Positions 1 through 40,110 of a stretch of 42,543 nucleotides of DNA are shown here, in pieces. A model generated the notes under the pieces. The model worked only from the letters and a program-made list of their open reading frames with translations. It made no database searches and had not been told where the DNA came from. The stretch lies in contig JACOTM010000067.1 in the NCBI GenBank assembly GCA_016178305.1, positions 1 through 42,543 on the forward strand, in the 5' to 3' direction. A program made the position numbers and the translations under genes. Each line of letters begins with the position of its first letter. Within the stretch, counting starts at the first letter, position 1. The stretch comes from Flavobacteriia bacterium. Lineage in GTDB: Bacteria; Bacteroidota; Bacteroidia; Flavobacteriales_D; Crocinitomicaceae.

Positions 1-729
1 TTGGAATCCTGGCAAGTTTCCAGACTCTGAATATTGCCAGTGCAGGATTCTTGAATCGTTGATGCATTCTGGTTTTCGGGAATAGGCTGCAATCCAAAAT
101 TTGTAGTCTTTAAAATAATCTTTAAATTTTGTTTCATAGAAATTTAAAGAGGTGTATATAATAGGACGCATTCCTGTTTTGTTTTCAACAGCTTTTAGCC
201 AAATTAACATTTTTGCTCTTAAGTCGTCGTCTGAAAACCCTTCCGTTTCTACGTCTAAAACTGGAGGTAAATCAACTTCTCTTTTTTTCCAATAATTTAA
301 AAAATGATTGACTTGTGGTAGGGGGGCATCTTTAGAGGAAAAAAAATGATAAGCCCCATTAGGAATACCTCGATTATTTAAAGAGTTTCTATTGGAATCC
401 CAACGAGTATCAACATGTGTACTTCCTTCCGTTGCTTTACAATAAACAAATTGAATAATTGTATCAAATTTTTCTTGATTAAATAAGATATTCCAATCAA
501 TAATTCCTTGATGATGCGAAATGTCAATTCCAAAAGATTCGAATCCTTTAGGGATTTGTTGAACAAAAGTATCTTTATTAATTTTTTTTGTCGAAAATTT
601 AAGGTATATAAATAGACCAACAATAAGAATTAAAAAAGTAAAGTATATCCAAAATCGTTTTGATTTTTTTGTTGATTTTTTTTTCGACTTTGAACTTCTA
701 GGTTTAGAAATTTTTCTTTGCTTGGCCAT
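1..729 (-). CDS. GH25-family lysozyme (muramidase), membrane-anchored, 3' end outside the window
   Basis: Translation from the ATG at 729 stays open for 243 codons to the window edge, so the C-terminus is missing. The first 25 residues are rich in Lys, Arg and Ser, followed by one hydrophobic segment (about 26-45), which suggests an anchored protein with the enzyme outside the cytoplasm. From residue 67 it matches glycoside hydrolase family 25: GIDISHHQG (Asp69), then VLDVETEG (Asp159 and Glu161, the usual acidic pair), IIYTS, FWIAAY, and HWQYS near 220. GH25 enzymes cut the MurNAc-GlcNAc bond of peptidoglycan. A role in cell-wall remodelling is an inference. The gene lies downstream of rplS on the same strand, but a terminator separates them. 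Confidence 0.88.
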   Translation of the reverse strand, partial: MAKQRKISKPRSSKSKKKSTKKSKRFWIYFTFLILIVGLFIYLKFSTKKINKDTFVQQIPKGFESFGIDISHHQGIIDWNILFNQEKFDTIIQFVYCKATEGSTHVDTRWDSNRNSLNNRGIPNGAYHFFSSKDAPLPQVNHFLNYWKKREVDLPPVLDVETEGFSDDDLRAKMLIWLKAVENKTGMRPIIYTSLNFYETKFKDYFKDYKFWIAAYSRKPECINDSRILHWQYSESGNLPGFQ

Positions 730-780
730 TAACAATTTAGATTATTTGAGTACAAATTTCGTAAATGTCTATGAAAATAA

Positions 781-806
781 AAAAGCTCCTCAAAAGAGAA
801 GCTTTC
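781..806 (-). terminator. Intrinsic terminator of rplS
   Basis: On the minus strand a stem AAAGCTTCTC / GAGGAGCTTT (one mismatch) closes a TTTT loop and is followed by a T-rich run. It begins about 20 bases after the rplS stop codon. Confidence 0.75.
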
Positions 807-828
807 CAATATGTTGAGAAGATAATTC

Positions 829-1206
829 TTATTTAGCAGCTTGAGCAGCCAAAGAAGCAGCACTTCTTTTTTCTCTAATACGAGCTGATTTACCAGTTCT
901 TTCACGGAAGTAGAAAATACGAGCGCGACGAACAAATCCTCTTTTGTTAATTACGATGTCTTCAATGAAAGGAGAAGCAATTGGAAAGATACGTTCTACA
1001 CCAATGTTTCCAGACATTTTACGAACAGTAAAAGTTTCAGTAACACCTGAACCACGACGTTGAATAACAACACCTTGGTATTGCTGAATACGCTCTTTGT
1101 TACCTTCTTTAATTTTATATGAAACAGTTACAGTATAACCACTTTTGAAAAAAGGGAAGTTTTTTACTTCAACTAATTCGTTCTCAATTTGTTTTAAAAT
1201 ATCCAT
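829..1206 (-). CDS. rplS: Large ribosomal subunit protein bL19
   Basis: The 125-residue product has the length and full pattern of bL19: the N-terminal helix, the core YQGVVIQRRGSG, the segment VERIFPIASPFIEDI and the basic RARIFYFRERTGKSARI near the C-terminus. bL19 sits at the interface of the 30S and 50S subunits. The last ten residues are a short Ala-rich tail after the conserved body. The ATG at 1206 follows a leader of about 30 bases behind a good Bacteroidota promoter, and a terminator lies just downstream, so the gene is probably transcribed alone. Confidence 0.98.
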   Translation of the reverse strand: MDILKQIENELVEVKNFPFFKSGYTVTVSYKIKEGNKERIQQYQGVVIQRRGSGVTETFTVRKMSGNIGVERIFPIASPFIEDIVINKRGFVRRARIFYFRERTGKSARIREKRSAASLAAQAAK

Positions 1207-5699: not shown

Positions 5700-5716
5700 T
5701 ATAAAACATTGATGTT

Positions 5717-6040
5717 ATGAGTTTAGAAAACACACAAGCTCAAATGCGAAAAGGGATTTTAGAATTTTGTATTCTTTCGATTTTAGAGAAAAGAGAAGCG
5801 TATCCATCTGAAATTCTGGAAACATTAAAAGAGGCTAAATTAATAGTTGTAGAGGGAACACTTTATCCTTTGTTGACGCGTTTGAAAAATTTGGAATTGC
5901 TTTCATATCGATGGGAAGAGTCTAATTCAGGACCACCTAGAAAGTATTTTACATTGACTGAGGAAGGAAAGTTTTTCTTAGAAGGTCTAAAGAAAACATG
6001 GTCAGAATTAAATACAGCAGTAACCACAATTATAAATTAA
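5717..6040 (+). CDS. PadR-family transcriptional regulator
   Basis: The 107 residues form the PadR winged helix: MRKGILEFCILSIL, the recognition region VVEGTLYPLLTRLKNLELLSYRW, the wing SGPPRKYFTLTEEGK, and a short C-terminal helix for dimerisation (s-PadR class). PadR proteins are usually repressors that bind a palindrome and respond to small molecules. The operator just upstream points to autoregulation. The partner gene, six bases downstream, encodes a PspC-domain membrane protein, a common pairing in Bacteroidota that suggests envelope-stress control. Confidence 0.93.
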   Translation: MSLENTQAQMRKGILEFCILSILEKREAYPSEILETLKEAKLIVVEGTLYPLLTRLKNLELLSYRWEESNSGPPRKYFTLTEEGKFFLEGLKKTWSELNTAVTTIIN

Positions 6041-6046
6041 AAGATT

Positions 6047-7612
6047 ATGAAAAAAACAGTTTCAGTAAATATAAAAGGCATCAATTTTTTAATAGAAGAA
6101 GATGCTTACGAATTATTACAGTCCTATATGAAAAGGCTGGAAAGTAGTTTGAAAAATGAAAAGGGAAGTAAAGAGATAATTGAAGATATTGAATATCGTA
6201 TTTCTGAATTGTGCTCTCAATCACTTATTAATTCGAAACAAGTTGTAGAACTTGAGGATATTGAATTAATAATTAATACTTTAGGGCAGCCAGAAGAATT
6301 TATTGAAGGAGAAACAGCTTTCACAGAAGAAAAAATACATGAGCAGACAACAAATAATACTGATTCTAATAATTTTGATTCAAAACAAGGGAAACGATTA
6401 TTTAGAGATGTCGAAAATGGAAAAATAGCTGGTGTATGTAGTGGGATTTCAAGCTATTTGAATTTAGATGTCATTGTTGTAAGGGTGCTTTTTTTGGTTG
6501 TTTTTTTTCTAGGTGGTTTCAGTATTCCTTTATATATCATTCTTTGGATAATTACACCAAAAGTAAATACATCAATAGATCGATTGAGAATGCAAGGGAA
6601 ACCGATAACGGTAGATTCTGTTAGAGAAGAAGTTGAAGCAGCAGCCCATCGTTTTGAAAATGAAACAAAATCTTTCGCAAATAAAATTAGAAATAATGAT
6701 AATATAAGTAATAGAATATCAACTATTGGTCGTTTGGTTGCTGTGATCGTTGGAGTTGGAATGGTCGTGGTAGGTGTTGCTATTTTAGTTTTTTTAGTAG
6801 TTTTTGGTTTTTTTGATGTCCAATTTATACCTGCTCAAACAGAATTTGGATTTTTATCATTTTCAACTTTAGGAGAGTTAATGATTGAAAATGATTCTGA
6901 TTTATTTTGGATGAGGCTATGCGCTTTTATTGTAGGATTTTCGATTGTGTTATTTTTATTTGTTTTAGGTGCCAAATTAATTTTTAATTCAAAAAGTAAA
7001 TGGATTAATTTGTGTTTATCATCTTTGTTTTCTATCGGATTAATCGGAATAATTATATGTATTGTTTTTGGAGTGAAGACAGGAAGAAATATGGCAATAG
7101 ATGGCGAAATTCAACGGAAAATTTTAGATATTAATTGTGAAAATATTCAGATTGAACCTAAAGTTTCTTCAAAAGAATCAAAAGGGGAATTTGTTACGAA
7201 ACATGAAAGTTCGGAAGGCTTTATCTCAATAAAAGGAAATAAAATAAAAGAATCTGGTATTCAATTCAGATATAAAACATCTTCAGATAGCTTATATCAT
7301 GTATATCAAGAGTTTAGTGCTAGAAGTTATACGCTGCAAAGTGCATTGTTGAAAGCTAAACATATTAAGCATTTTGTTTCTTACAAAGATAATGTACTAA
7401 TCGTTTCAACAGGTTATTCTTTTCCTAAAAGTGATAAATTGAGAGATCAAGATGTTACAATTGTTATTGAAATTCCTAGTGGTAAAACTGTAAAAATGCC
7501 TCATCATACGATTTTTTTAGGAACAAATAATTCTGACGAAGATATCAATGATCCTTATTATGAAGAAGAAGGAGAAATGTATTTTGATGGAGCTTATTAT
7601 CATTGGAATTAG
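6047..7612 (+). CDS. PspC-domain envelope stress protein
   Basis: The 521-residue protein begins with a soluble region of about 90 residues (VNIKGINFLIEEDAYELL, then ISELC and NTLGQPEEF) typical of Bacteroidota PspC proteins. The PspC domain follows at about 116-171 (LFRDVENGKIAGVCSGISSYL, then a long hydrophobic pair ending IILWIITPK). Three further membrane segments lie near 228-255, 285-310 and 325-345, and the last 150 residues form a beta-rich, probably non-cytoplasmic domain. PspC proteins sense or counter membrane damage in the phage-shock response. With the PadR gene six bases upstream, this is a two-gene operon under one operator. Confidence 0.9.
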   Translation: MKKTVSVNIKGINFLIEEDAYELLQSYMKRLESSLKNEKGSKEIIEDIEYRISELCSQSLINSKQVVELEDIELIINTLGQPEEFIEGETAFTEEKIHEQTTNNTDSNNFDSKQGKRLFRDVENGKIAGVCSGISSYLNLDVIVVRVLFLVVFFLGGFSIPLYIILWIITPKVNTSIDRLRMQGKPITVDSVREEVEAAAHRFENETKSFANKIRNNDNISNRISTIGRLVAVIVGVGMVVVGVAILVFLVVFGFFDVQFIPAQTEFGFLSFSTLGELMIENDSDLFWMRLCAFIVGFSIVLFLFVLGAKLIFNSKSKWINLCLSSLFSIGLIGIIICIVFGVKTGRNMAIDGEIQRKILDINCENIQIEPKVSSKESKGEFVTKHESSEGFISIKGNKIKESGIQFRYKTSSDSLYHVYQEFSARSYTLQSALLKAKHIKHFVSYKDNVLIVSTGYSFPKSDKLRDQDVTIVIEIPSGKTVKMPHHTIFLGTNNSDEDINDPYYEEEGEMYFDGAYYHWN

Positions 7613-7960
7613 TTAGTTGGAAATCGTAATTTTATAGAGCTATAATTTTTTAAAAATCCATAAAATAGCTGTTTTTAAGTTGTGTAAGATGTTTTTTTGA
7701 GTTTTGGAAATCGTAATTTAAAGAAATTAAAATTAAACGTTTAGTTGTTGTTTTTATTACACTTGTGGTGCAAAACTGTTAAATTATAAAACTAAACTAT
7801 GAAAACTCTGTTGTTATTAACGGAAGAAGCTATTTTTTGTAATATCTCCAAATTACAAAAATCGAAGAGATTTTTTCTGATCTCTTCGATTTATAAATTT
7901 TTCTTAGGACAATCAAAACATGGTTTTCAGATGTTATTTTAATTCTCAAATTAAAATATT
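7613..7960 (+). other. Intergenic region with a direct repeat, a strong hairpin and a 47-codon open frame
   Basis: No convincing gene lies in these 348 bases. A 16-base word, TTGGAAATCGTAATTT, occurs twice (7617-7632 and 7704-7719). An open frame of 47 codons runs from ATG 7799 to the stop ending at 7942, but the perfect 13-bp hairpin at 7859-7892 lies inside it, so it is probably not coding. The region could be a long 3' untranslated region of the pspC transcript or hold a small RNA that ends at the hairpin; neither can be decided here. Confidence 0.4.
7859..7905 (+). terminator. Strong intrinsic terminator upstream of the T9SS gene
   Basis: AAATCGAAGAGAT pairs perfectly with ATCTCTTCGATTT across an 8-base loop (7859-7892), followed by a T-rich stretch to about 7905. 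It lies 245 bases after the pspC-like stop codon. Confidence 0.75.
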
Positions 7961-10900
7961 ATGAAAAACTACTCTCTATTTCTACTTTTTCTATTTTCTT
8001 TTGTTTTTCCTTCAAATTCTCAATTAATAATTACGCCAAATGTTGGTAATACAGGAGTAATTAATACTGTAGGAGGGACAGGAATTGTTGTTTCAAATGT
8101 AACAATTAATTGTGGAAGCAATTCTTATGGAACATTTTCAAATGGTAATAATGCTGGTTTGGGATTAGGTACAGGACTGATATTGACAACAGGACAAACT
8201 TCTCAAATAAATTCGAATGGAACGAATCAAAATGATGATTTTGATATTGAGTTGGGTACTTTGTCTAATGATCCTCAATTAACAAGTGTAATAGGTTCAG
8301 GTGTTAATATTTTTGATCCATGCATTATTGAATTTGATGTAGTGCCACAATGTGGTTTAATCAGTATTACTTTTGTTTTTGGTTCAGATGAATATACGAA
8401 TTATGTGAGCGCAGGATTTAATGATGGCTTTGGTTTTTTTGTAACTGGACCAAAGCCTACAGGTGGAAATTATACGAATACAAATATTGCAACGTTACCA
8501 AATGGCACAATAGTCAGTATTGATAATGTTAATACAACGATGAATCCAACTTTTTTTACGAATAATAATAATGGAAGTTTTCTGAATCATTTGGATGGAT
8601 TTACACATGTATTAACCCCAACAATTGCTGTAATTCCCTGTCAAACATATCATTTTAAATTAGCTATTGCAGATGCCGCAGATGCAAACATTGACTCAGC
8701 AGTTTTGATTGATATTATTCAATGTAGTAATCCGTTAGTTGTAGCAACTTCTTCAACACCTGATCATTGTGGGAATGGTATCGGTACTGCTGCTGTAACG
8801 ACAACTGGTGGAACAGGTCCTTTTCAATATAGCTGGTCTCCTACTGGTGGAAATAATTCGACGGCACAAAATTTACAAAGTGGAACATATACGGTAACGG
8901 TAGTGGATGCATTAGCTTGTACACCTAATTCTACTTCTACCGTTGTTGTTGGGAATACGGGAATTATTCCAACGGTTGTCGTTCCTGCCAATATTGTAGC
9001 TTGTAATGGGCAACAAGTCAATTTAAATAATTTTTCAAGTTCTCAAACTGGAACAACATTTTCATGGACCAATTCAAATCCATCAATAGGTTTACTTGCT
9101 AATGGAATAGGAGGGCAACCGGCATTTTTAGCAATAAATACAGGGAATACCCCTCAAATTGCAACAATTACAGTTACTCCAAGTATTACGGGTGAATGTC
9201 CAGGTGTTTCAAGTTCTTATACGATTACAGTTATGCCAACACCAATAATGAATCCTATTTCAAATATTATTGTGTGTGCAGGAACAATGATTACAGTATC
9301 CACATTTTCCAGTTCTGTAGCAGGTACATCTTATAATTGGACGAATTCAAATGTTGGTATAGGATTATCAGCTAATGGAAGTACAAGTATCAATCCATTC
9401 ACTTCTGTCAATGCAACCAATAACCAGTTAGTTAGTTCTATTTCAATTGTACCATCAGCAAGTTCTTGTATTGGAGTACCAATTAATTTTACGATAAGTG
9501 TAAATCCAAATCCAATTGTTAATCCAATCAGTAATGTAATTGATTGTGTAGATAATGTTATTTTAGGTAGTGCTTTTACAAGTACACCTATAGGAGCTTC
9601 TTTTTCTTGGGTCAATTCCAATCCTTCAATAGGGTTAGCAGCTAATGGAAATATAGATTATATGTCTTTTACAGGGATGAATAGTGGAAGCATTTCGAAT
9701 ATTGCCACTGTTTCAGTTACGCCAACTTTAGGTGTTTGTGTAGGTCCTGCTTTGAATTATACCATTACGATTTCTCCAAAACCTATAATGACTCAACCTG
9801 ATAATATTTCTATTTGTGCAAATCAAAATATTATTATTCCTGTTTTCACTTCAATTCCGAACACTGGAGTGAATTATTCTTGGAGTAATTCAGATGCATC
9901 AATTGGTTTACCGTTAAATGGTATAGGGAATATTACTTCTTTTACGGGGAATAATTTAGGTGTAAATTCAATTTTTTCTACAATTAATGTGATACCTTCT
10001 ATTGGTCAGTGTCAAGGAAGTACACAATCTTTTACGATTGAAATATTACCAATTCCATCAATGAATCAGCCTAGTTCTATTACTGTTTGTCCGAATGAGT
10101 TGATAAGTCCAGATTTATTTGTAAGTACACCTATGGGGGCAACTTTTACATGGACCAATTCAAATTCAAGTATTGGTTTAGTTTCCAATGGAAGTTCTTC
10201 AATTTCTCCTTTTACTAGTATTAATTCTACCAATCTTATTCAGAATTCACAAATTAATGTTGTTCCAACTTTAGCGGGATGTTCTGGGATGATAACAACA
10301 TTTGATATTGCTGTAAAACCTATTCCTGTTTTGAATAATTTAAATGATTTGGTCAGTTGTGCAAATGAGACAGTTAATCTCCCTGTTTTTATTTCAACCC
10401 CGATCGGTGCGACTTTCAGTTGGGTGAATTCAAATGTTAATATTGGTTTGGGAGGAAGTGGAAATGGTTCAATTCTGCCATTTACAACAGTGAATAATGG
10501 GACAACTCCTTTGGTTTCTTCCATTGAAGTGGGTTTAGTATTGTCGGGTTGTATAGGAATTACAGAGATATTTGATATAACAATAAATCCTATTCCATCA
10601 GTGATTGTAACGAATAATTCTCCTCTTTGTGAGCACGAGAATTTAGAATTGAGTATTGAAGCTGTTTCAAATGCGATTTATTCATGGAGTGGACCAGAGG
10701 GCTTTGAGTCAACATTGCAAAATCCAATGATTTCAGATGTTTCTATTATGAATGCAGGTACTTATTTTGTTTCTGTTTTGGCGAATGGATGTGTTGATTC
10801 TACTACGACAGAAGTGATTGTTTATCCTGTAATATTGTCTGAAATAATAAGTATAGATCCATTATGTATCAATGCAGCACCAGTTACCTTACAAGCAACA

Positions 10901-18674: not shown

Positions 18675-19622
18675 ATGAGTAATTCAATTACAGCAACAGA
18701 ATTTAACTTTCCATGTCAAAAAGCGGTTTATCACGGAAAAGTTCGTGATGTCTATACCTTAGAAAATGACATTATAGTGATGGTCGCTTCTGATCGTATT
18801 TCTGCATTTGACCATATTTTACCAAAAGGAATTCCGCACAAAGGACAAGTCTTGAATCAAGTTGCGACGATGTTCTTAGAAGCTACTAAAGATATTGTTC
18901 CGAATTGGTTAATTGGTACTCCAGATCCTGCAGTTGCAGTTGGTTATGCATGTGAACCTATAAGGGTGGAAATGGTAATTCGTGGATATTTGGCTGGACA
19001 TTCAGCAAGACAATATCAAGCTGGAATCAGAGAATTATGTGGTGTGAAAATGCCAGAAGGAATGAAAGAAAATGATAAATTTCCGGAGCCAATTATTACG
19101 CCCGCAATTAAAGCAGAAGAAGGACATGATATTGATGCCTCTAGAGAAGAAATTTTAACTCAAAATATAGTTCCAGCACCTATTTATGTGAAAATGGAAG
19201 AATATACACGTGCTTTATTTCAAAGAGGAACAGAAATGGCAGCTAAAATGGGGTTGATTTTAGTAGATACAAAATATGAGTTCGGAATTAGAAATGGAGA
19301 AGTGATCTTAATTGATGAAATTCATACACCTGACTCTTCAAGATATTTTTATGCCGAAGGTTACGCCGAAAGACAAGCAAACGGAGAACAACAAAAACAA
19401 TTATCGAAAGAATTTGTTCGTCAGTGGTTGATTGAAAATGATTTTCAAGGATTAGAGGGACAAACAATGCCAATAATGCCAGATGAATTTGTAAATGTAG
19501 TTACAGAAAGATATATTGAACTTTACGAAAAAATTACGGGTCAAAAATTCATTAAAGCTGATACAACAGACATTTCAAAAAGAATCGAAACGAATGTTAA
19601 CGATTTTTTAAAAGCATATTAA
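18675..19622 (+). CDS. purC: Phosphoribosylaminoimidazole-succinocarboxamide synthase
   Basis: The 315-residue protein is the longer (about 300 residues) form of SAICAR synthetase. Visible motifs are [51 protein letters not shown], the substrate-binding [22 protein letters not shown] and [15 protein letters not shown]. It ligates aspartate to CAIR with ATP in purine synthesis. It is monocistronic: its own -7 motif lies upstream and a strong terminator downstream. No other pur gene is nearby. Confidence 0.98.
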
Positions 19623-19707
19623 TAGAAATTAGATTATAATAGAAAAGAAAAATATTCCTTTTTATTAAAGTTGCTATATTCTATATAGTTTCGAATTATT
19701 TAAATTG

Positions 19708-19741
19708 AAATCTCGTTTGTAAATATTCGAGATTTTTTTTT
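19708..19741 (+). terminator. Intrinsic terminator of purC
   Basis: AAATCTCG pairs perfectly with CGAGATTT across a 12-base loop and runs into a stretch of T. It ends only ten bases before the palindrome that begins the next control region. Confidence 0.9.
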
Positions 19742-19750
19742 GAGTATTTT

Positions 19751-19769
19751 ATTTAGAACTAATCTAAAT
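19751..19769 (+). promoter_or_regulatory. Possible DtxR/IdeR-type metal-responsive operator
   Basis: ATTTAGA-ACTAA-TCTAAAT is a perfect inverted repeat with 7-base arms, close in form to the TTTAGAnnnnTCTAAA-like sites expected for DtxR-family metal repressors. It lies 83 bases before the TonB receptor start and just upstream of the promoter. A second, shorter repeat, ATACCA-N6-TGGTAT, follows at 19768-19785. No regulator gene is nearby, so the binder is inferred. Confidence 0.5.
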
Positions 19770-19784
19770 ACCATTTTTGTGGTA

Positions 19785-19815
19785 TTGTAGTTTCTTTTGG
19801 AAAGATTTTACTTTG
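19785..19815 (+). promoter_or_regulatory. Promoter of the TonB receptor-multicopper oxidase unit
   Basis: TTG at 19785-19787, a 20-base spacer, then TTACTTTG at 19808-19815, one base off TAnnTTTG. The leader would be about 12 bases. Confidence 0.5.
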
Positions 19816-19833
19816 TGGCATAAAATAAAAGTC

Positions 19834-22008
19834 ATGAAGATGAAAAATAATATATTCGTATTTACATTAACATTAACCACATTTTTTTCTTTTTCTCAAG
19901 AACAAGATACATCCAAATTGATTGAAGAAGTCATTATTAAATCTTATCAACCTTTTAATGGAATAGGGCGAATGAAAGACGATAATGGACAGGTAATTTA
20001 TGCTGGAAAAAAAACGGAAGTATTATTAATTGATAGTTTAGATGCAAATAAAGCAATAAACAATACAAGACAAATTATTGGTAGAATTCCAGGGTTAAAC
20101 ATTATTGAAACAGAAAGTAGTGGTTTTACAGCAAATGGAATTGCTTTTAGAGGTTTAAATCCTTATCAAAGTGTTGAAACAAATACCAGACAAAATGGCT
20201 ATAATATTTCAGCAGATATTTTTGGGTATAATGAAGCTTATTATATTCCACCTATGGAAGCCGTAAAAAATATTACTTTTTTAAGAGGAGCTTCAAGCTT
20301 AGCTTTTGGACCTCAAATCGGAGGGATGATTAATTATGAATTGAAAGATGGAGCAAGTAAACCTTTTGAAGTAACAACATCTCAAACAATGGGGACAAAT
20401 AATATGTTCAATAGCTTTACTTCAATTGGTGGGACACATAAAAAAATAAAATATTATGGTTTTATGCAATATCGTTACTATGAAGGTTGGAGAAGTAATT
20501 CAAAACAAAATCAATTATCGGGATTTGGAAGCATTAAATATAATCCAACGACAAGGTTACAATTAGGATTAGAATACACAGGTTTGAGAAATACGATTCA
20601 AATGCCAGGAGGATTGACAGATTCTTTATTTAATGAGAATTCACAACAATCTACACGTTCTAGAAATTGGTTGCAAAGCCCTTGGAATATAGTGTCTGGA
20701 AACTTGAATTATAACATCAATGAAAATACTTCTTTGAGTTTGAAATCAACATTCCTATACAGTCAAAGAGATTTGGTGTGGAGAAATGAAGATGGAGGAC
20801 CAGCAGAAAAAGATACCATAACACCAGATTTAACTTATGTAGCAAGAGAGGTGGAACATGAATATTTTAGAAGTTCGACGAACGAATTCCGATTTTTGAC
20901 AAATTATAAATTAGGAAATCAGAAGCAAACATTGGCTTGTGGTGTTCGATATGCGTATTCATTTTTGAAAAGACAACACGGAGCAGAAGGAACAACAGCA
21001 AGCGATTTGGATTACACCACAACATCTCCATGGGGAGGAAATATGAATTTTTACAATACAAATATTGCTGTTTTTGCGGAAAATATTTTTAGAGTAGGAA
21101 AGAAATTTAGCATTACACCTGGAATTCGTTACGAGTATTTAAAAACAATTGCAGATGGTTATGATGAAAATGAAGCAGAGGACAGCGAAGATCCGTATGT
21201 TGTAGCAAATATGTTGAAAAAAACTAGAAAATTCATTTTAGGAGGAGTTGGACTGCAATATAAAATCACAGAGCAAATGAATGTTTACGGAAATTATAGT
21301 CAAAGTTTTAGACCGATAACTTACAGTGATTTAACACCTTTTGGAACAATTGCAAAAATTGATCCGAATTTAAAGGATGCAAGTGCAGATAATCTTGATT
21401 TTGGAATTAGAGGTAAGCTGAAAAATATTGTCAATTTTGATTTCAGTCTTTTTTACTTAAATTATAAAAATAAAATTGGAACAGTATTCACAGATGGTAT
21501 AGCTTTAAGAACAAATACTGGAAGCTCGTTACATCAAGGTGTTGAAACATACATAGAGATTAATCTTTTAGATGGTATTATTAAGTCGAAAGCATTCGGG
21601 AAATTGAGTGTTTACAATTCGTATGCGTATGTGAATGCGCAATATGTATCAGGTGAATTTAAAGGAAATCAAGTAGAATATGCACCTAAAAATATTGAGC
21701 GAGTTGGTTTGAATTATAAATTGAAAAACTTTTCTATGAATGTTCAATATTCTTATACAGCCTCTTCTTTTGGTGATGCAAGTAATGCAATTTTTGCTGA
21801 AGATGCTTTGTCAGGTATTATTCCTTCATATAGTTTAGTTGACTGTTCAGCTTCTTATAAAGTGAAACAAAAATACCAATTCAAATTTGGGGTTAATAAT
21901 ATATTAAACAAAAAATATTTTACATTGCGTACAACTGAATATCCTGGACCCGGAATTATTCCTTCAATTGGAAGAATGATATACGCTGGTATTTCAGTAA
22001 CTTTTTAA
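19834..22008 (+). CDS. TonB-dependent outer-membrane receptor (FecA-like)
   Basis: The ATG at 19834 is chosen (a second ATG lies six bases on), since it puts the signal peptide KNNIFVFTLTLTTFFSFSQ at the N-terminus; the product is 724 residues. After a TonB-box-like EEVIIKSYQPF comes the plug (RQIIGRIPGLNIIETESSGF, IAFRGLNPYQSVETNTRQ, ITFLRGASSLAFGPQIGGMINYEL) and then the barrel with many aromatic-ended strands, closing with YAGISVTF, a terminal Phe as for outer-membrane barrels. It resembles ferric-citrate-type receptors and lacks the CarboxypepD-like N-terminal domain of SusC proteins. A metal-type operator lies upstream and a ferroxidase-like gene follows after 22 bases, so iron uptake is the likely role. 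Confidence 0.9.
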   Translation: MKMKNNIFVFTLTLTTFFSFSQEQDTSKLIEEVIIKSYQPFNGIGRMKDDNGQVIYAGKKTEVLLIDSLDANKAINNTRQIIGRIPGLNIIETESSGFTANGIAFRGLNPYQSVETNTRQNGYNISADIFGYNEAYYIPPMEAVKNITFLRGASSLAFGPQIGGMINYELKDGASKPFEVTTSQTMGTNNMFNSFTSIGGTHKKIKYYGFMQYRYYEGWRSNSKQNQLSGFGSIKYNPTTRLQLGLEYTGLRNTIQMPGGLTDSLFNENSQQSTRSRNWLQSPWNIVSGNLNYNINENTSLSLKSTFLYSQRDLVWRNEDGGPAEKDTITPDLTYVAREVEHEYFRSSTNEFRFLTNYKLGNQKQTLACGVRYAYSFLKRQHGAEGTTASDLDYTTTSPWGGNMNFYNTNIAVFAENIFRVGKKFSITPGIRYEYLKTIADGYDENEAEDSEDPYVVANMLKKTRKFILGGVGLQYKITEQMNVYGNYSQSFRPITYSDLTPFGTIAKIDPNLKDASADNLDFGIRGKLKNIVNFDFSLFYLNYKNKIGTVFTDGIALRTNTGSSLHQGVETYIEINLLDGIIKSKAFGKLSVYNSYAYVNAQYVSGEFKGNQVEYAPKNIERVGLNYKLKNFSMNVQYSYTASSFGDASNAIFAEDALSGIIPSYSLVDCSASYKVKQKYQFKFGVNNILNKKYFTLRTTEYPGPGIIPSIGRMIYAGISVTF

Positions 22009-22030
22009 TTCATTTAGTAAATAAAAAAAT

Positions 22031-23161
22031 ATGAAATTTAAATTAATATTAATTACGTCTTTGATAATTACAGGTTGTTTTATGTCTTGTAAAAAAGAAG
22101 AAATAAAAACTCCTGAACCTGAAAATGAAGTAGCAGCTCAGACGCGTGTATATTATATTGCTGCGGTTGAGCAAGAGTGGGATTATGCACCGCAAGGAAA
22201 AAATGTATTTACAGGAATGGATTTTGATTCAAATGATTCTGTTTACACGGTAAATTCAAATACAAATGAGATTCAAAGAATAGGTAGAAAGTATGTGAAA
22301 GCAAGATATATAGAATATACGGATTCAACATTCACAACTCCTAAGGATATAGCTCCTGAGTGGGAACATTTAGGAATTCTTGGTCCTGTTATTCGAGCAA
22401 ATGTAGAAGATTCTGTATTAGTTTATTTTAAGAACAAAACAACAATAAATACAAGTTTACATGTGCATGGATTGCAATATGATGTCAATTCAGAAGGGGC
22501 TCCCTATAATAATGGAGCAACAAGTGGAGCGACAATTGCACCCAATGAATCTTATTTGTATAAATATTATGCAAGAGAAGAATCAGGACCTTCAGATTCA
22601 CAAGGTAGTTCAAATGTTTGGGTATATCACACACATGTAAATATGGATGAATCAGATATGTATGCAGGTTTAATGGGAGCAATTATTGTGAACAAAAAAG
22701 GGATGGGAGATGAAAATGCACACCCAATTGATATTGATCGCGAATTTGTGACTTTGTTTATGGTAATTAATGAAAACAGTAGTTCGTATATAAATCAAAA
22801 TATTACGACTTATTTGCCAGGTTTCACGAATCCAAATCCTGATGATTTCGAAGAAAGTAATAAAAAACATACAATCAATGGAATGTTAATGGGGAATCTA
22901 CCTGGTTTAGATATGAAAAGAGGGGAACGTGTACGTTGGTATGTACTAGATTTAGGAAATGAAGTGGATTTGCACACACCACATTGGCATGGAAATGTCG
23001 TAAATTTCAATGGCCAATATACAGATGTTTTAGAATTATTACCTGCTAATATGTTGATTGCAAATATGCGTCCTTATAATGTTGGTACATGGGCTTTTCA
23101 TTGCCATGTTACAGATCACATGATGGCTGGAATGACAGCGCTGTATAATGTTACAGAATAA
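22031..23161 (+). CDS. Two-domain multicopper oxidase lipoprotein, ceruloplasmin-like
   Basis: The 376-residue product has a lipoprotein signal with Cys at 16 or 20. Domain one holds EQEWDYAPQGKN, YTDSTFTTPKDIAPEWEHLG, ILGPVIRANVEDSVLVYFKN, HVHG (His144, His146) and VYHTHV (His200, His202). Domain two holds REFVTLFMVINENSSSY, HTPHWHG (His315, 318, 320) and HCHVTDHMMAGM, the complete multicopper oxidase signature with the type 1 ligands Cys358, His363 and Met368. The sequence stretches are strikingly like vertebrate ceruloplasmin/hephaestin domains. It probably oxidises Fe(II) or Cu(I) at the envelope. It starts 22 bases after the TonB receptor, so oxidation may feed ferric iron uptake. Confidence 0.93.
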   Translation: MKFKLILITSLIITGCFMSCKKEEIKTPEPENEVAAQTRVYYIAAVEQEWDYAPQGKNVFTGMDFDSNDSVYTVNSNTNEIQRIGRKYVKARYIEYTDSTFTTPKDIAPEWEHLGILGPVIRANVEDSVLVYFKNKTTINTSLHVHGLQYDVNSEGAPYNNGATSGATIAPNESYLYKYYAREESGPSDSQGSSNVWVYHTHVNMDESDMYAGLMGAIIVNKKGMGDENAHPIDIDREFVTLFMVINENSSSYINQNITTYLPGFTNPNPDDFEESNKKHTINGMLMGNLPGLDMKRGERVRWYVLDLGNEVDLHTPHWHGNVVNFNGQYTDVLELLPANMLIANMRPYNVGTWAFHCHVTDHMMAGMTALYNVTE

Positions 23162-23293
23162 ATAAATTGAAAAAATAAATACAATGATAATAAGAACCTG
23201 TCATAAATTTATTATGACTTCCTTATTTTAAGTTTTTTATACCCAAAATTCAATAAAATTGTTTCTCAAATAATTTTAGTCAACTTCTAAAAG

Positions 23294-23320
23294 AACTTCC
23301 ATGATAATGGGAGTTTTTTT
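23294..23320 (+). terminator. Terminator between convergent genes
   Basis: AACTTCC / GGGAGTT (one G-U pair) around an 8-base loop is followed by a T-run on the plus strand. On the minus strand the same stem is followed by a weaker T-rich stretch, so it may serve both transcripts. It ends the multicopper oxidase unit. Confidence 0.75.
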
Positions 23321-24071
23321 ATTTTTTAACAGTACAATATTTTGCTTGGGCAGGAACAAAAAACCAACTTGAGGTTAATTTACTGGTTTTTTTAATAATC
23401 GGTTCAAACTTTTCCATTCGATTTAATTCCGAAGTATTATTTAATAATTTCCCTTCATAAATATTTATGTATTTTGGCATTCCTGGTTGACTTTCTACAA
23501 TGTCAAAATAATTAGCTGTGACATTTTTTGTTCCTAATTTGTCATATTCATTCCATTCAAAAACAGTTTTAGGATTATGATTTGTAATGGTAATGTAATC
23601 TCTGAAAGAAGCATTTAATAGCCTGAAATCCATTACAATGTCTTTGTATGCATTTGAAGATAGATTGATGAAGTTAATTTTTAATTCACTTAGTGCAGAA
23701 GACATGACAACAATGTTAGGAGTTATTTTTTTAAATTCACCATCATAGTAAAATAGATAATTGTAGTTTCCTGCAAATCCAATTTCAGATGCTTTTGCTG
23801 TTTTCTTTTTGTTTTCTAATTCAGAATAAGCAAAATCTAATCGATTGACAGTAATAATAGCATCTTCAAAATCATCAGAATTTAAATGTTCTTTATAAAT
23901 TCGCATGGAATATTTTTCAGAAGAAGGAATTTTTAAATCTGACTCAACATGCCTTTTCGCTAATTCTTCCAACGTCATTTCTTCATCTTTTTCATCAGGT
24001 TTCTCATTCGTTGTATTTTTACAACTTAATAATAATGTAGAAAAAAATAGAATTGAAAAATATTTCTTCAT
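23319..24071 (-). CDS. Lipoprotein of unknown function
   Basis: The true start is the ATG at 24071, which gives a lipoprotein signal (MKKYFSILFFSTLLLSCKN, Cys at 17); the frame stays open further upstream only as antisense of ung. The 250-residue product has an acidic stretch (EKPDEKDEEMTLEELAKRHVE) and then a mixed alpha/beta body with YNYLFYYDGEFKKI and YDKLGTKNVTANYFDIVE. I do not recognise a family. It has a divergent promoter region with ung and shares a terminator region with the multicopper oxidase gene, but nothing ties it functionally to either. Confidence 0.8.
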   Translation of the reverse strand: MKKYFSILFFSTLLLSCKNTTNEKPDEKDEEMTLEELAKRHVESDLKIPSSEKYSMRIYKEHLNSDDFEDAIITVNRLDFAYSELENKKKTAKASEIGFAGNYNYLFYYDGEFKKITPNIVVMSSALSELKINFINLSSNAYKDIVMDFRLLNASFRDYITITNHNPKTVFEWNEYDKLGTKNVTANYFDIVESQPGMPKYINIYEGKLLNNTSELNRMEKFEPIIKKTSKLTSSWFFVPAQAKYCTVKK

Positions 24072-37186: not shown

Positions 37187-40110
37187 TTACAGTTTGATAA
37201 AATTAATTATTTTCTGACTCTCTAAACCCTTCATAGTGATCGTGTAAGAACCTGATGATAGCTGTTCAATATTAATATGATTATCTTCATTTAAATTTAA
37301 TTTTTTCACAAAAACAATGCGACCAAAATTATCTTGAATCGAAATGAATACTTCAGAATTAGAAAATGATTGTATATATAAATCTGAATTTGTTGGGTTT
37401 GGGTAAATTTGAAAGTCGGTTTCTTTACAATTGATAGAATAGGGACCAAAAATTTTATGATTGCCATTTAAATCTACTTCTTCTAATTGGATATAAGATA
37501 TTTCATTTCTTGAAGGAAACAGATATTGATAATTTTGAATAGTGTTTGAATTGATATGAGCATTTATTTTAGCAATACTTTCAAAATTTGTACCATTAGA
37601 TGATGTTTGAATTTCGAAAAAGTTTGTATTTATTTCATTGTATGTTTTCCATTCAATTTTACCTTTTGAATCAATACAACTTATATTTATTGCCCCCATT
37701 TCAAGAGGTAAGGGTGTATTCGTTGTTGCGATTGACCCCATTCTGAAATAATAGACTCCTGTTGTAGGTAAATCTCCAACTGGAATCGCAAATGTAATTA
37801 CATTACCACTAACAGTAGAATAAGCATAAGCACGTTCGTTAGCATCAGCGCCAATACCTTGACCGAAAGTTGTATTGTCATCTAAAAGTAAGCGCAAGTT
37901 TGTAGGATCATTAGATCCACCTAATCCATTGCCAGAACTTCCATTCACTTGACTCATGTCAAACTGTACTTTTAAATTGGTTAATGATTTTCCACCAGAT
38001 AACCCTGTTGTTTGAATTCTAAATATGCGATTTTGTACAATTGCTATACTTGTTGATCCGTGTGTGTAGGAAACTGCTGTGCCACTGATTGTGCCATTGT
38101 TGTGTCCGACGATAATGTACGTTCCTTCATCGATATTTGTTGGAGTTGTAATGTCATCATGAGCTATTGTAAAAGGCATGTCTGTTGAACTTGCAGCTGA
38201 TGGAACGTTGATGCTCATAGATTTATTTTGTTGTAAACCTTCAACTGTACTTTCTGCACCAATGCCTGTTACATCATAATGATATCCTGAGTTTGCTGTC
38301 CATATTGTTGTTCCTGAGGTATTTGTGTATCCAACTGATGTTGATCCATTTCCACCTAAAGTTATTCCATATTTTATAGCTAAATAGGAATCGACTCTAT
38401 TTCTAAGATATGCTGGTAAATTAATTGAAAAAGTAAAAAATTCTCCAATAGATCCATTTAATGGATATGATCCATCCATGTGAGCTCCAATATTGATTGT
38501 TGCCATTGTTGTAGCACCAGCACCTGTTGCAGTTGATGTTCCAGAATAATTTGAACTTCCATTTAAATAGTTTGCTAGAGTTAAACTATTGGCAGAGTTA
38601 ATGGTTCTGTCAGCTGCAACTAGTAAATATTTATTCGTATTAATAGCTGTTGCAGAAGCATTCGAAAGAGTGAAATCAACAGCTGCTGTTGAAACTTGAC
38701 CATAAAGTGGTTTACCTGATGAATTGAATGTAATACAAAAATCAACGGGATTAGGGGAGCCACCAACATCGCCGCCATATATTGAAGGAGCTAGCCAGAA
38801 AGTATTGTTTCCGCTTTGTGAAGTTTTAATTATGGAGTAAAATGAAAAGTCACTCGTTGCAGGGTTTGTTAGTGTAAAATAATTGACATAAGAAGAGTTC
38901 ATTTCAATATATGGATTGAAATTGATATTTTGAGAAGAATTATTTCTCAATATTGGTTTTGATGTTGTTCCAGATGCTGTAGCACCATAAGCATTAGAAG
39001 ATTGATCTGTCCAAGTTGTTATTTGTCCACCGTCTGTAGCTCCTGTTCCAGCACTAGGTTTTAGCCATAATTTTAAATAATTATAACCAACTCCCCCAGG
39101 TGTAGGGTTACAAGCAGTAATGGTCCGTGAACCAGCTGGATCGTTGGCGGTGACTGTTTGTGCCGAACCTCCTACAGTTAGAGTGGTTGTTGGTGAAGCT
39201 AATAATTTTGCATCTAATGTATTTGAAGTTGTTGCATTTGGATTGACATCATAAGTTACCCAAAAATAATTGGTACCATTACTCAATGCTTGCGAGCCTG
39301 AAATTGTAATTGTTCCAGAAGCTGGGTCTGTTCCGCCTCCATCAAAAGGTGAAATTGGAGAATAGGTGCTTGAGGTTCCTGTATAAAATATATGAATTTT
39401 TGAAACGTCTGTTGTGGGAGATGTTCCTGCCATTTGCATTTTAATTTCTGTTAATGAAATGGCACTACAAGATCCAGTTGTGACTACTTGAATACCTAAT
39501 ATCTCTCTATAAATATCTGACTTTGATAGATTTGATGTAGATGCTTGTACTGTGGTTCCTGAAGAATATGCCATGTTTGAACCTGTACTTAATACTATTG
39601 CATAATCTTCCGTTTCTCCATAATCTGTATATCCATAATATAGCAATATTAAAAATGTCGCTGCATCACGGCACTACAAAGCTACAGTACAAAATAACAA
39701 CCTATAGAGTCTATTTAGATTGCCTGAGCCTGGTTTTTTAAAATAGAGCCACCAAAATAGCAGGAAAAATCACCGTCTTCATTCCAGTCAACCCAAATAC
39801 CACATTGATCACCACTGTATGGATACCCATTGCTTACTGTGATTGCATACCCTGTTCCAGTTGTCATATTTGTTGATTGTGATCCGTAATAATTAACATA
39901 ACCTCCACTAGTACATGCTGTTGTGTTATTAATTGAACCTACCGTTACATTTGAAATATATTCATCACAATTTGCAGAAGGTGTTGTACACTGCGCATGA
40001 GTAACATTACACAACAAGATACAAACAAAACTTATTTGAATCAAAAATGGTATGATATGTTTTGAAATTGTTTTCAAATGCAATGTCTTTTTATTGTTTT
40101 TAATATACAA
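37187..40110 (-). pseudogene. T9SS-sorted surface protein broken within its GEVED domain
   Basis: One frame from 40110 encodes a signal peptide (ending NVTHAQ) and the front of a GEVED domain (GYPYSGDQCGIWVDWNEDGDFS), then stops at 39718-39720. A second frame, on the same strand, resumes as LLYYGYTDYGETEDYAI, the end of a GEVED domain, and runs to 37187. It then carries a BNR-associated N-type domain (SDIYREILGIQVVTTG and IHIFYTGTSSTYS), a LamG-like domain (YLKLWLKPSAG to IKYGITLG), a DUF8202-like domain (DVTGIGAE, FRMGSI), and a type A T9SS sorting domain (FQIYPNPTNSDLYI). About 40 residues of the GEVED centre are missing, replaced by roughly 70 bases in which all three frames make poor sense. 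Each half alone would be non-functional or non-secreted. Confidence 0.85.

Follow-up and report, generated by a model that had tools for sequence, protein, structure and literature searches.

The 42,543-nucleotide stretch analysed here (the window) spans positions 1–42,543 of contig JACOTM010000067.1 of a Flavobacteriia bacterium (assembly GCA_016178305.1). At positions 19751–23161 it contains a palindrome, a gene for a TonB-dependent receptor and a gene for a two-domain multicopper oxidase related to ceruloplasmin. It is probable that these form a horizontally acquired, Fur-repressed, two-gene cassette for iron acquisition, in which a surface lipoprotein ferroxidase feeds a FecA-like receptor. 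The core of this interpretation, a metal-regulated receptor coupled to a ceruloplasmin-like lipoprotein ferroxidase, was proposed in a first-pass annotation made from the sequence, and it was supported in the two refutation tests applied to it: the oxidase groups with ceruloplasmin and the box lies at other iron genes. The three elements are:

19751–19769, no strand: perfect 19-bp palindrome ATTTAGA-N5-TCTAAAT (0 mismatches), a putative operator of the flavobacterial Fur-box type, with the arms of the Riemerella anatipestifer Fur box

19834–22008, plus strand: TonB-dependent receptor, plug and FecA-like barrel (Pfam, sequence search of the PDB)

22031–23161, plus strand: two-domain multicopper oxidase of the ceruloplasmin type, predicted outer-membrane lipoprotein, 376 aa (Pfam, phmmer, trees, fold)

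The receptor gene precedes the oxidase gene on the same strand, and the open reading frames are separated by 22 bases. The receptor frame opens with TTG 19777, with ATG 19834 and ATG 19840 being the better starts, and it stops at 22008. The palindrome, receptor, 22-base gap and two-domain oxidase described in the first-pass annotation were all located, and both oxidase stretches quoted there, EWEHLGILGPVIRA and REFVTLFMVINEN, are present in the translation.

In Pfam, the oxidase comprises Cu-oxidase_3 and Cu-oxidase_2. When solved chains were searched with phmmer, the best matches were ceruloplasmins (E 8e-195), each chain being matched in three stretches of ~214–225 bits, one for each two-domain repeat of ceruloplasmin. 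The next matches were coagulation factors VIII and V together with a factor V-related venom protein, and two-domain laccases came at E ~1e-14. Identity to the three repeats of rat ceruloplasmin is 37–41%. Further support came from an AlphaFold monomer model built from 54 family sequences, which has a predicted local distance difference test score (pLDDT) of 95.3 and a predicted template modelling score (pTM) of 0.93. This model matches human ceruloplasmin at Z 47.5 (1.7 Å over 336 residues) and the best two-domain oxidases at Z 24–25.5 over ~232–260 residues.

The residues that would bind copper and iron were located by alignment, and those of the iron site by alignment to the rat repeats. The human ceruloplasmin numbers given for E275, H280, E311 and D362 are those which we take to correspond to the aligned rat residues:

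22460–23134, plus strand: copper ligands, comprising trinuclear H144, H146, H200 and H202 (domain 1) and H318, H320, H357 and H359 (domain 2), and type 1 H315, C358, H363 and M368

22853–22870, plus strand: E275 and H280 (E-S-N-K-K-H), presumed equivalents of ceruloplasmin E935 and H940

22961–22963, plus strand: E311 (G-N-E), presumed equivalent of ceruloplasmin E272/E971, a ligand from another repeat

23114–23116, plus strand: D362 (H-C-H-V-T-D-H), presumed equivalent of ceruloplasmin D1025

Of 68 family rows, 62 could be scored at all 16 sites. The 12 copper ligands are complete in 58 of these and the Fe(II) quartet E/H/E/D in 32, counting the window protein and L002, a duplicate row for the L051 gene. 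The quartet is found in 0 of 33 ordinary oxidases, 32 of which have a gap in the E311 column, so that no residue-by-residue comparison applies at this position. The layout is that of type B enzymes, with the type 1 copper in domain 2 only and an H-T-H without Cys in domain 1. In ceruloplasmin, the Fe(II) sites consist of E935, H940 and D1025 (domain 6) with E272 (domain 2), and of E597, H602 and D684 (domain 4) with E971 (domain 6) (PMC11817551, PMC3738974). A type B two-domain enzyme is described as a homotrimer, in which the trinuclear site lies between domain 1 of one subunit and domain 2 of the next (PMC13151041).

Two trees were used to place the oxidase, a quick one and a careful one of 72 rows. 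The outgroup consisted of 11 of the 33 ordinary oxidases; the fragments L073, L087, L088, L090 and L092 and the duplicate L002 were omitted from both trees, and the outgroup rows L136, L138, L005 and L010 additionally from the careful one. In the careful tree, the whole oxidase family separates from the 7 outgroup rows (100/100), the long branches of which were flagged. Here, 31 quartet rows share one branch with the three ceruloplasmin repeats (support 97/92), and the family rows without the quartet (n = 31) are, bar one, from Acidobacteriota and Gemmatimonadota. The same outer split was recovered in the quick tree at 97 (Shimodaira–Hasegawa-like approximate likelihood ratio test) with 11 outgroup rows. 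These include L136, which is a SLAC by its PDB match (E 1e-202) and falls with the outgroup, subject to a long-branch warning; no grouping of the family with SLAC-type small laccases was seen in this tree. Its ceruloplasmin rows lie outside the prokaryotic rows, with the attachment point not resolved. On these sequences, ceruloplasmin appears to be a member of the quartet branch that was triplicated and fused, its exact place being unsure on account of long branches. As the oxidase consists of one two-domain unit and not of the six domains of ceruloplasmin proper, it is a relative of ceruloplasmin and not a ceruloplasmin.

A scan of 84,980 species genomes using two peptide patterns, which gives a lower bound, identified at least 65 oxidase loci in Bacteroidota, Pseudomonadota, Acidobacteriota, Actinomycetota, Chloroflexota, Gemmatimonadota, Bdellovibrionota, Poribacteria and Nitrososphaerota (Nitrosopumilus), and also in Methanoperedens. 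The oxidase is rare close to the window: it occurs in 1 of 150 genomes of the taxonomic family, which is the window's own, and in 2 of 395 genomes of the phylum at E <1e-90 (own included), with 47 others reaching only E 3e-10 or weaker. No relative was confirmed in a scan of viral contigs, and PADLOC returned nothing for the oxidase. The oxidase belongs to a scattered prokaryotic family of two-domain, ceruloplasmin-type enzymes. The first-pass claim of a greater likeness to ceruloplasmin than to CueO-type enzymes stands on sequence, fold and trees, which place the oxidase with the ceruloplasmin repeats and apart from laccases and CopA-type enzymes, while the suggestion of an animal-like oddity gives way to a prokaryotic family. 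Transfer from an animal to a bacterium was rejected, since the family spans many prokaryotic phyla and the window row sits among prokaryotic rows. Elsewhere in the family, on a plasmid of Methylocystis heyeri (L031:8365-13640, plus strand) the oxidase belongs to a gene run that also encodes a hypothetical protein (no Pfam match), an FMN-binding protein and an FAD:protein FMN transferase and includes a ferritin-like gene, named as annotated in the record; one trinuclear His of this oxidase is replaced by Arg (H318R).

The N-terminus of the oxidase suggests where the protein resides:

22088–22102, plus strand: likely lipid-anchor Cys20 at the head of C-K-K-E-E, a match to the Bacteroidota lipoprotein export signal C-X-K-(D/E)2-X; Cys16 is a second possible anchor

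This lipoprotein export signal comes from Capnocytophaga canimorsus (PMC5080379), and C20-K-K-E-E of the oxidase conforms to what is expected of Bacteroidota surface lipoproteins. The oxidase is therefore probably located on the outer face of the outer membrane, as judged from this motif.

The receptor consists of the Pfam Plug domain and a TonB barrel, and no N-terminal signalling or carboxypeptidase-like domain was found with Pfam. Its closest solved relative is FecA (E 8e-26), which bears out the description of the receptor as FecA-like; its score of 135.2 bits is below the FecA equivalog cut-off of 1100. A TonB-copper model matches weakly, at 22.1 bits against a cut-off of 472. A search of 395 genomes of the class gave relatives of the receptor in 25 (E <=1e-180), and one of 296 genomes of the phylum gave them in 5 at >=52% identity, the window's own genome being counted in both.

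The palindrome is the reason for proposing control by Fur. It sits 65–83 bases before the receptor ATG 19834 and is the sole exact site in the window. In the flavobacterium R. anatipestifer, the Fur box was predicted as ATTTAGAATTATTCTAAAT, and binding of Fur to such promoters, one of them that of an Fe3+-dicitrate receptor, was demonstrated by electrophoretic mobility shift assay (PMC5609570). The arms of the palindrome are identical to those of ATTTAGAATTATTCTAAAT. At <=3 mismatches the window has 14 sites where 14.55 are expected, which is the level of chance, and for this reason only exact or 1-mismatch sites were used. The whole genome has 3 exact sites and 30 at <=1 mismatch, compared to 0 and 13 for a reversed control pattern, so that many of the 1-mismatch sites may be due to chance. 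One Fur-family match (G000:C57:140-499) is present in the genome, as is FeoB.

The presence of the palindrome at other iron genes was supported by the loci described next, although no box was seen in the feoB region. The second exact box lies 75 bases before a gene for HmuY, which is followed by CbiX and a receptor on the same strand. This run (L127:793-5450, minus strand, G000:C8), which has weaker boxes before it in addition to the exact one, is likely to serve haem uptake. Another receptor has two 1-mismatch sites ahead of it, at 79 and 7 bases, and a further such site immediately precedes an Fe-S cluster assembly gene. When the 400 bases ahead of the start codon were checked for 10 other receptor genes of the genome, none had a site at <=1 mismatch there; one of the 10 is the HmuY-linked receptor, where the box lies before the first gene of the run. 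A site at C95:26727, seemingly linked to a run of di-haem oxidoreductase and Rieske genes, was discounted as it overlaps the end of the first coding frame. The third exact box (G000:C2:30796-30814, L097:2497-2515) lies 48 bases before a gene that resembles, by eye, a LuxR-type response regulator, and similar-looking regulator genes adjoin relatives of the receptor in L201, L202, L203, L207 and L212.

Strong evidence for conservation of the box came from related receptor loci, which were scanned from 250 bases before to 60 bases after the frame start. Here, 15 of 29 loci (window included) have a site at <=1 mismatch, 14 of them before the frame start and one after it. The reversed pattern was found in 0 of 29 and 200 shuffles gave a mean of 0. 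L214, which is among the 15, is placed on the outgroup side in the receptor tree. At L050 and L195 a gene for a DtxR-type iron-dependent repressor is located beside the receptor, and the regulator acting at these two loci may be either Fur or the DtxR-type protein.

The same gene order recurs elsewhere. In all four Bacteroidota loci where the upstream gene is visible, the receptor lies directly upstream of the oxidase with 20–26 bases between them: the window, L039 (Sediminibacterium), L050 (a Bacteroidia metagenome-assembled genome) and L051/L002 (Mucilaginibacter MD40, where the receptor is frameshifted in the deposit). A fifth locus, L032, begins inside the oxidase. The surroundings of 25 further loci with relatives of the receptor were also examined, with Pfam applied to a minority of the neighbours. 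The receptor clusters with the genes for Fur, FeoA and FeoB in L161 and L162, and L161 also has a ferritin beside the receptor. In three others (L196, L197 and L199), the position of the oxidase, 9–26 bases after the receptor, is occupied by CCP_MauG, a di-haem peroxidase whose start, CKKE, is of the lipoprotein type:

L196:4335-5447, L197:4413-5549 and L199:4012-5115, all minus strand: lipoprotein-type CCP_MauG peroxidases in the oxidase's slot

In the receptor tree, where L051 was placed by its downstream part, the four receptors linked to oxidases do not group as a single clade (4 changes, 4 forced by starred branches), and neither do the three linked to peroxidases (3 changes, 2 forced). 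This scatter indicates that partners were repeatedly gained, lost or exchanged in the same slot. Outside Bacteroidota, no shared receptor neighbour of the oxidase was found, and clustering of oxidase neighbours, a minority of which were identified with Pfam, gave no partner common to more than 9 loci, the top one occurring on either strand and at varied distances. In Methanoperedens, a CCP_MauG gene lies directly before the oxidase (L048:4796-5857, plus strand).

That the pair was acquired by insertion is indicated by the same position in congeners:

19613–23490, no strand: stretch absent from congeners, PurC and the downstream hypothetical and uracil-DNA glycosylase genes being adjacent in five genus-mates

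In these five (L231–L235), the hypothetical gene and the uracil-DNA glycosylase gene come immediately after PurC, and in three others (L236–L238) an unrelated large gene does, so that the pair is beside PurC in 0 of 8 genus-mates; a ninth, L229, was left out as it ends at a contig edge. The alignment to L231 breaks off at window position 19612 and picks up at 23491. In another genus-mate, L230, a receptor of 65% identity has an exact box, and no oxidase of this kind adjoins it. GC content does not mark the insertion (31.1 and 33.7 for the pair, 31.3% for the window), and a search for repeats at its edges gave nothing convincing. The flanks are mostly housekeeping genes by Pfam, with PhoH and PurC upstream and the hypothetical gene, uracil-DNA glycosylase and HemE downstream. 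Farther along, at 37187–39646 on the minus strand, the window encodes a large protein in which Pfam recognises BNR_assoc_N and a type IX secretion sorting tail.

Taken together, a mechanism can be proposed. On iron scarcity, Fur would leave 19751–19769 and both genes would be made. The oxidase would be a homotrimer, in effect an unfused ceruloplasmin, with its Fe(II) site near the type 1 copper being formed by E275, H280 and D362 of one subunit and E311 of its neighbour. Electrons would pass via C358 to trinuclear sites shared by domain 1 of one subunit and domain 2 of the next, where O2 would be converted to water. The Fe(III) produced, either directly or as a citrate-type chelate, would be handed over to the FecA-like receptor and imported with TonB, after which, following reduction, FeoB or another inner-membrane carrier would take the iron onward.

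Several observations weigh against this proposal. The role of E311 requires a neighbouring subunit and the model is of a monomer only. The strict export signal is found in the window protein only, its relatives having CKK(E/D) with one acidic residue. In the genome, no box at <=2 mismatches is present in the feoB region, and none is seen before fur, where the gene is at a contig start and 70 bases are visible. Of the 29 related receptor genes, 12 have nothing better than 5 mismatches in the scanned stretch; L050 and L162 are among these, the former having an exact box slightly beyond the limit, 261 bases ahead of the start, and the latter an exact box before the first gene of its cluster. No ceruloplasmin-type oxidase is found in the 25 receptor-relative loci, which means that the receptor does not need one. 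Finally, genes that look copper-related (by eye, without Pfam) lie a few kb downstream of the pair in L051.

Four other explanations were weighed. In the first, which we regard as unlikely, the oxidase is protective: a surface lipoprotein that guards against Fenton damage by removing Fe(II) (and Cu(I)), and that has an iron-controlled promoter in common with the receptor without feeding it. Ceruloplasmin also has cuprous oxidase and other oxidase activities (PMC3738974), which is consistent with this role. So too are the di-haem peroxidases, a class linked to peroxide, in the slot of three related loci, and the ferritin beside the receptor in L161 and the ferritin-like gene after the Methylocystis oxidase. 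However, protection would be expected under iron excess, whereas the Fur box predicts expression under shortage.

Rather improbable is a second explanation, in which the substrate of the oxidase at the surface is an organic chelator such as a catecholate, so that iron would be freed or re-shaped for the receptor and not itself oxidised. The type B two-domain enzyme CjMCO acts as a laccase (PMC13151041) and ceruloplasmin also oxidises some organic substrates (PMC3738974), but tree and fold set the oxidase apart from laccases. A copper system, with the receptor importing a copper chelate and the oxidase detoxifying Cu(I) as CueO/CopA-type enzymes do, is decidedly improbable. The family contains copper, the receptor has its weak TonB-copper similarity and there are the possible copper genes near the L051 pair. 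Against this, the oxidase translation shows no Met-rich insert of the CueO kind (by eye) and the Fe(II) quartet is complete; weighing most are the Fur-type box at the promoter and at relatives, and the clustering of receptor relatives with Fur–FeoAB. The chance of a neighbourhood accident, two useful but unrelated genes carried on one insertion, is very small: the 25 receptor loci and the phyla outside Bacteroidota, where the oxidase occurs with no shared receptor neighbour, would fit it, but two findings argue against chance: the order is repeated at 20–26 bases in four Bacteroidota loci with receptors that do not make up a single clade, and three more loci have another oxidising lipoprotein at that position.

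Beyond the two-gene cassette, a wider hypothesis is put forward tentatively, as somewhat less than an even bet. Bacteroidota may use an exchangeable outer-membrane module for iron oxidation, in which one Fur-controlled receptor subfamily is joined in the same slot by a lipoprotein that is either of the ceruloplasmin type and driven by O2 or of the di-haem type and driven by peroxide. Oxidation of Fe(II) would then take place exactly where it is imported. The oxidase branch would then be a living, homotrimeric stage behind ceruloplasmin, and tandem duplicates in L071 and L032 would repeat its asymmetric loss of trinuclear sites.

In L071, an Acidobacteria metagenome-assembled genome, tandem oxidase genes (5707–7110 and ~7038–8339, plus strand) have complementary losses of trinuclear ligands. 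The first gene keeps the domain 1 histidines and has Arg and Gln at two domain 2 sites; the second keeps the domain 2 set and has Ala, Tyr and Arg at three domain 1 sites. Losses are divided in the same way between ceruloplasmin repeats 1 and 3. The Fe quartet is in neither gene. In L032, a copy at 1–1080 (plus strand, 5' open, running off the contig) lies beside another at 1111–2241; in the upstream copy four trinuclear histidines have been lost but the Fe quartet and type 1 copper remain, which resembles ceruloplasmin repeat 2 in kind. The two L071 genes form a clade of their own in the careful tree (100/100), where the L032 copies are placed together with the window row (100/100), so that the losses would be parallel to the evolution of ceruloplasmin, provided that the metagenome assemblies are right.

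In a phylogeny from 2013, the six-domain proteins were proposed to have arisen by triplication of a two-domain one, with prokaryotes represented by MnxG-type proteins, only sequences of >800 residues being kept (PMC3600357). A literature search, which covered few subscription journals, found no description of the prokaryotic two-domain branch and no report of a ceruloplasmin-type oxidase paired with a TonB receptor. As far as that search reached, this would be a new layout of known building blocks, namely those of ferroxidase-coupled iron transport. If the proposal is correct, some Bacteroidota would owe their use of Fe(II) despite oxygen to a ferroxidase coupled to an outer-membrane TonB receptor. 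In addition, the family provides small, single-unit proteins with the copper and iron sites of ceruloplasmin, which allow the origin of the six-domain protein to be tested. Why ceruloplasmin retains one of three trinuclear sites can likewise be tested in bacterial proteins and in natural duplicates on a similar road.

How does the pair compare to known systems? FecA, the ferric-citrate receptor, is the nearest solved relative of the receptor; it has an N-terminal signalling domain, whereas the receptor here is plug and barrel only and falls far under the equivalog cut-off. The likeness to the Fur regulon of R. anatipestifer lies in the operator arms and their position near receptor genes, and is known here from sequence. 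Type B two-domain oxidases (SLAC, CjMCO) share the two cupredoxin domains, the type 1 copper in domain 2 and the split trinuclear ligands (PMC13151041). SLAC (L136) differs in being on another tree branch, in lacking the Fe(II) quartet and in its lower fold score (Z 24–25); CjMCO was compared by description only.

Fet3 of yeast is a three-domain oxidase and, together with Ftr1, is induced by iron shortage. A multicopper oxidase of Pseudomonas aeruginosa has reportedly also been studied in Fe(II) use. Ferroxidase-coupled iron transport is described at the plasma membranes of yeast (Fet3–Ftr1) and humans (ferroportin with ceruloplasmin or hephaestin) (PMC11817551). The pair resembles Fet3–Ftr1 in that a surface multicopper ferroxidase would be combined with an iron importer (PMC11817551); the importer there is a permease and here a TonB-dependent outer-membrane receptor, and Fet3 is weakly matched. 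No Ftr1-kind permease lies beside the oxidase, the rest of the genome not having been searched for one. With a TonB receptor as neighbour, the pair would work like Fet3–Ftr1 without being a member of that system. The closest likeness is to ceruloplasmin and hephaestin, which extends to sequence, fold, copper ligands and the residues of the Fe(II) site. Those proteins have six domains; the protein here is a two-domain bacterial lipoprotein with both trinuclear half-sites intact in one subunit, and presumably a homotrimer.

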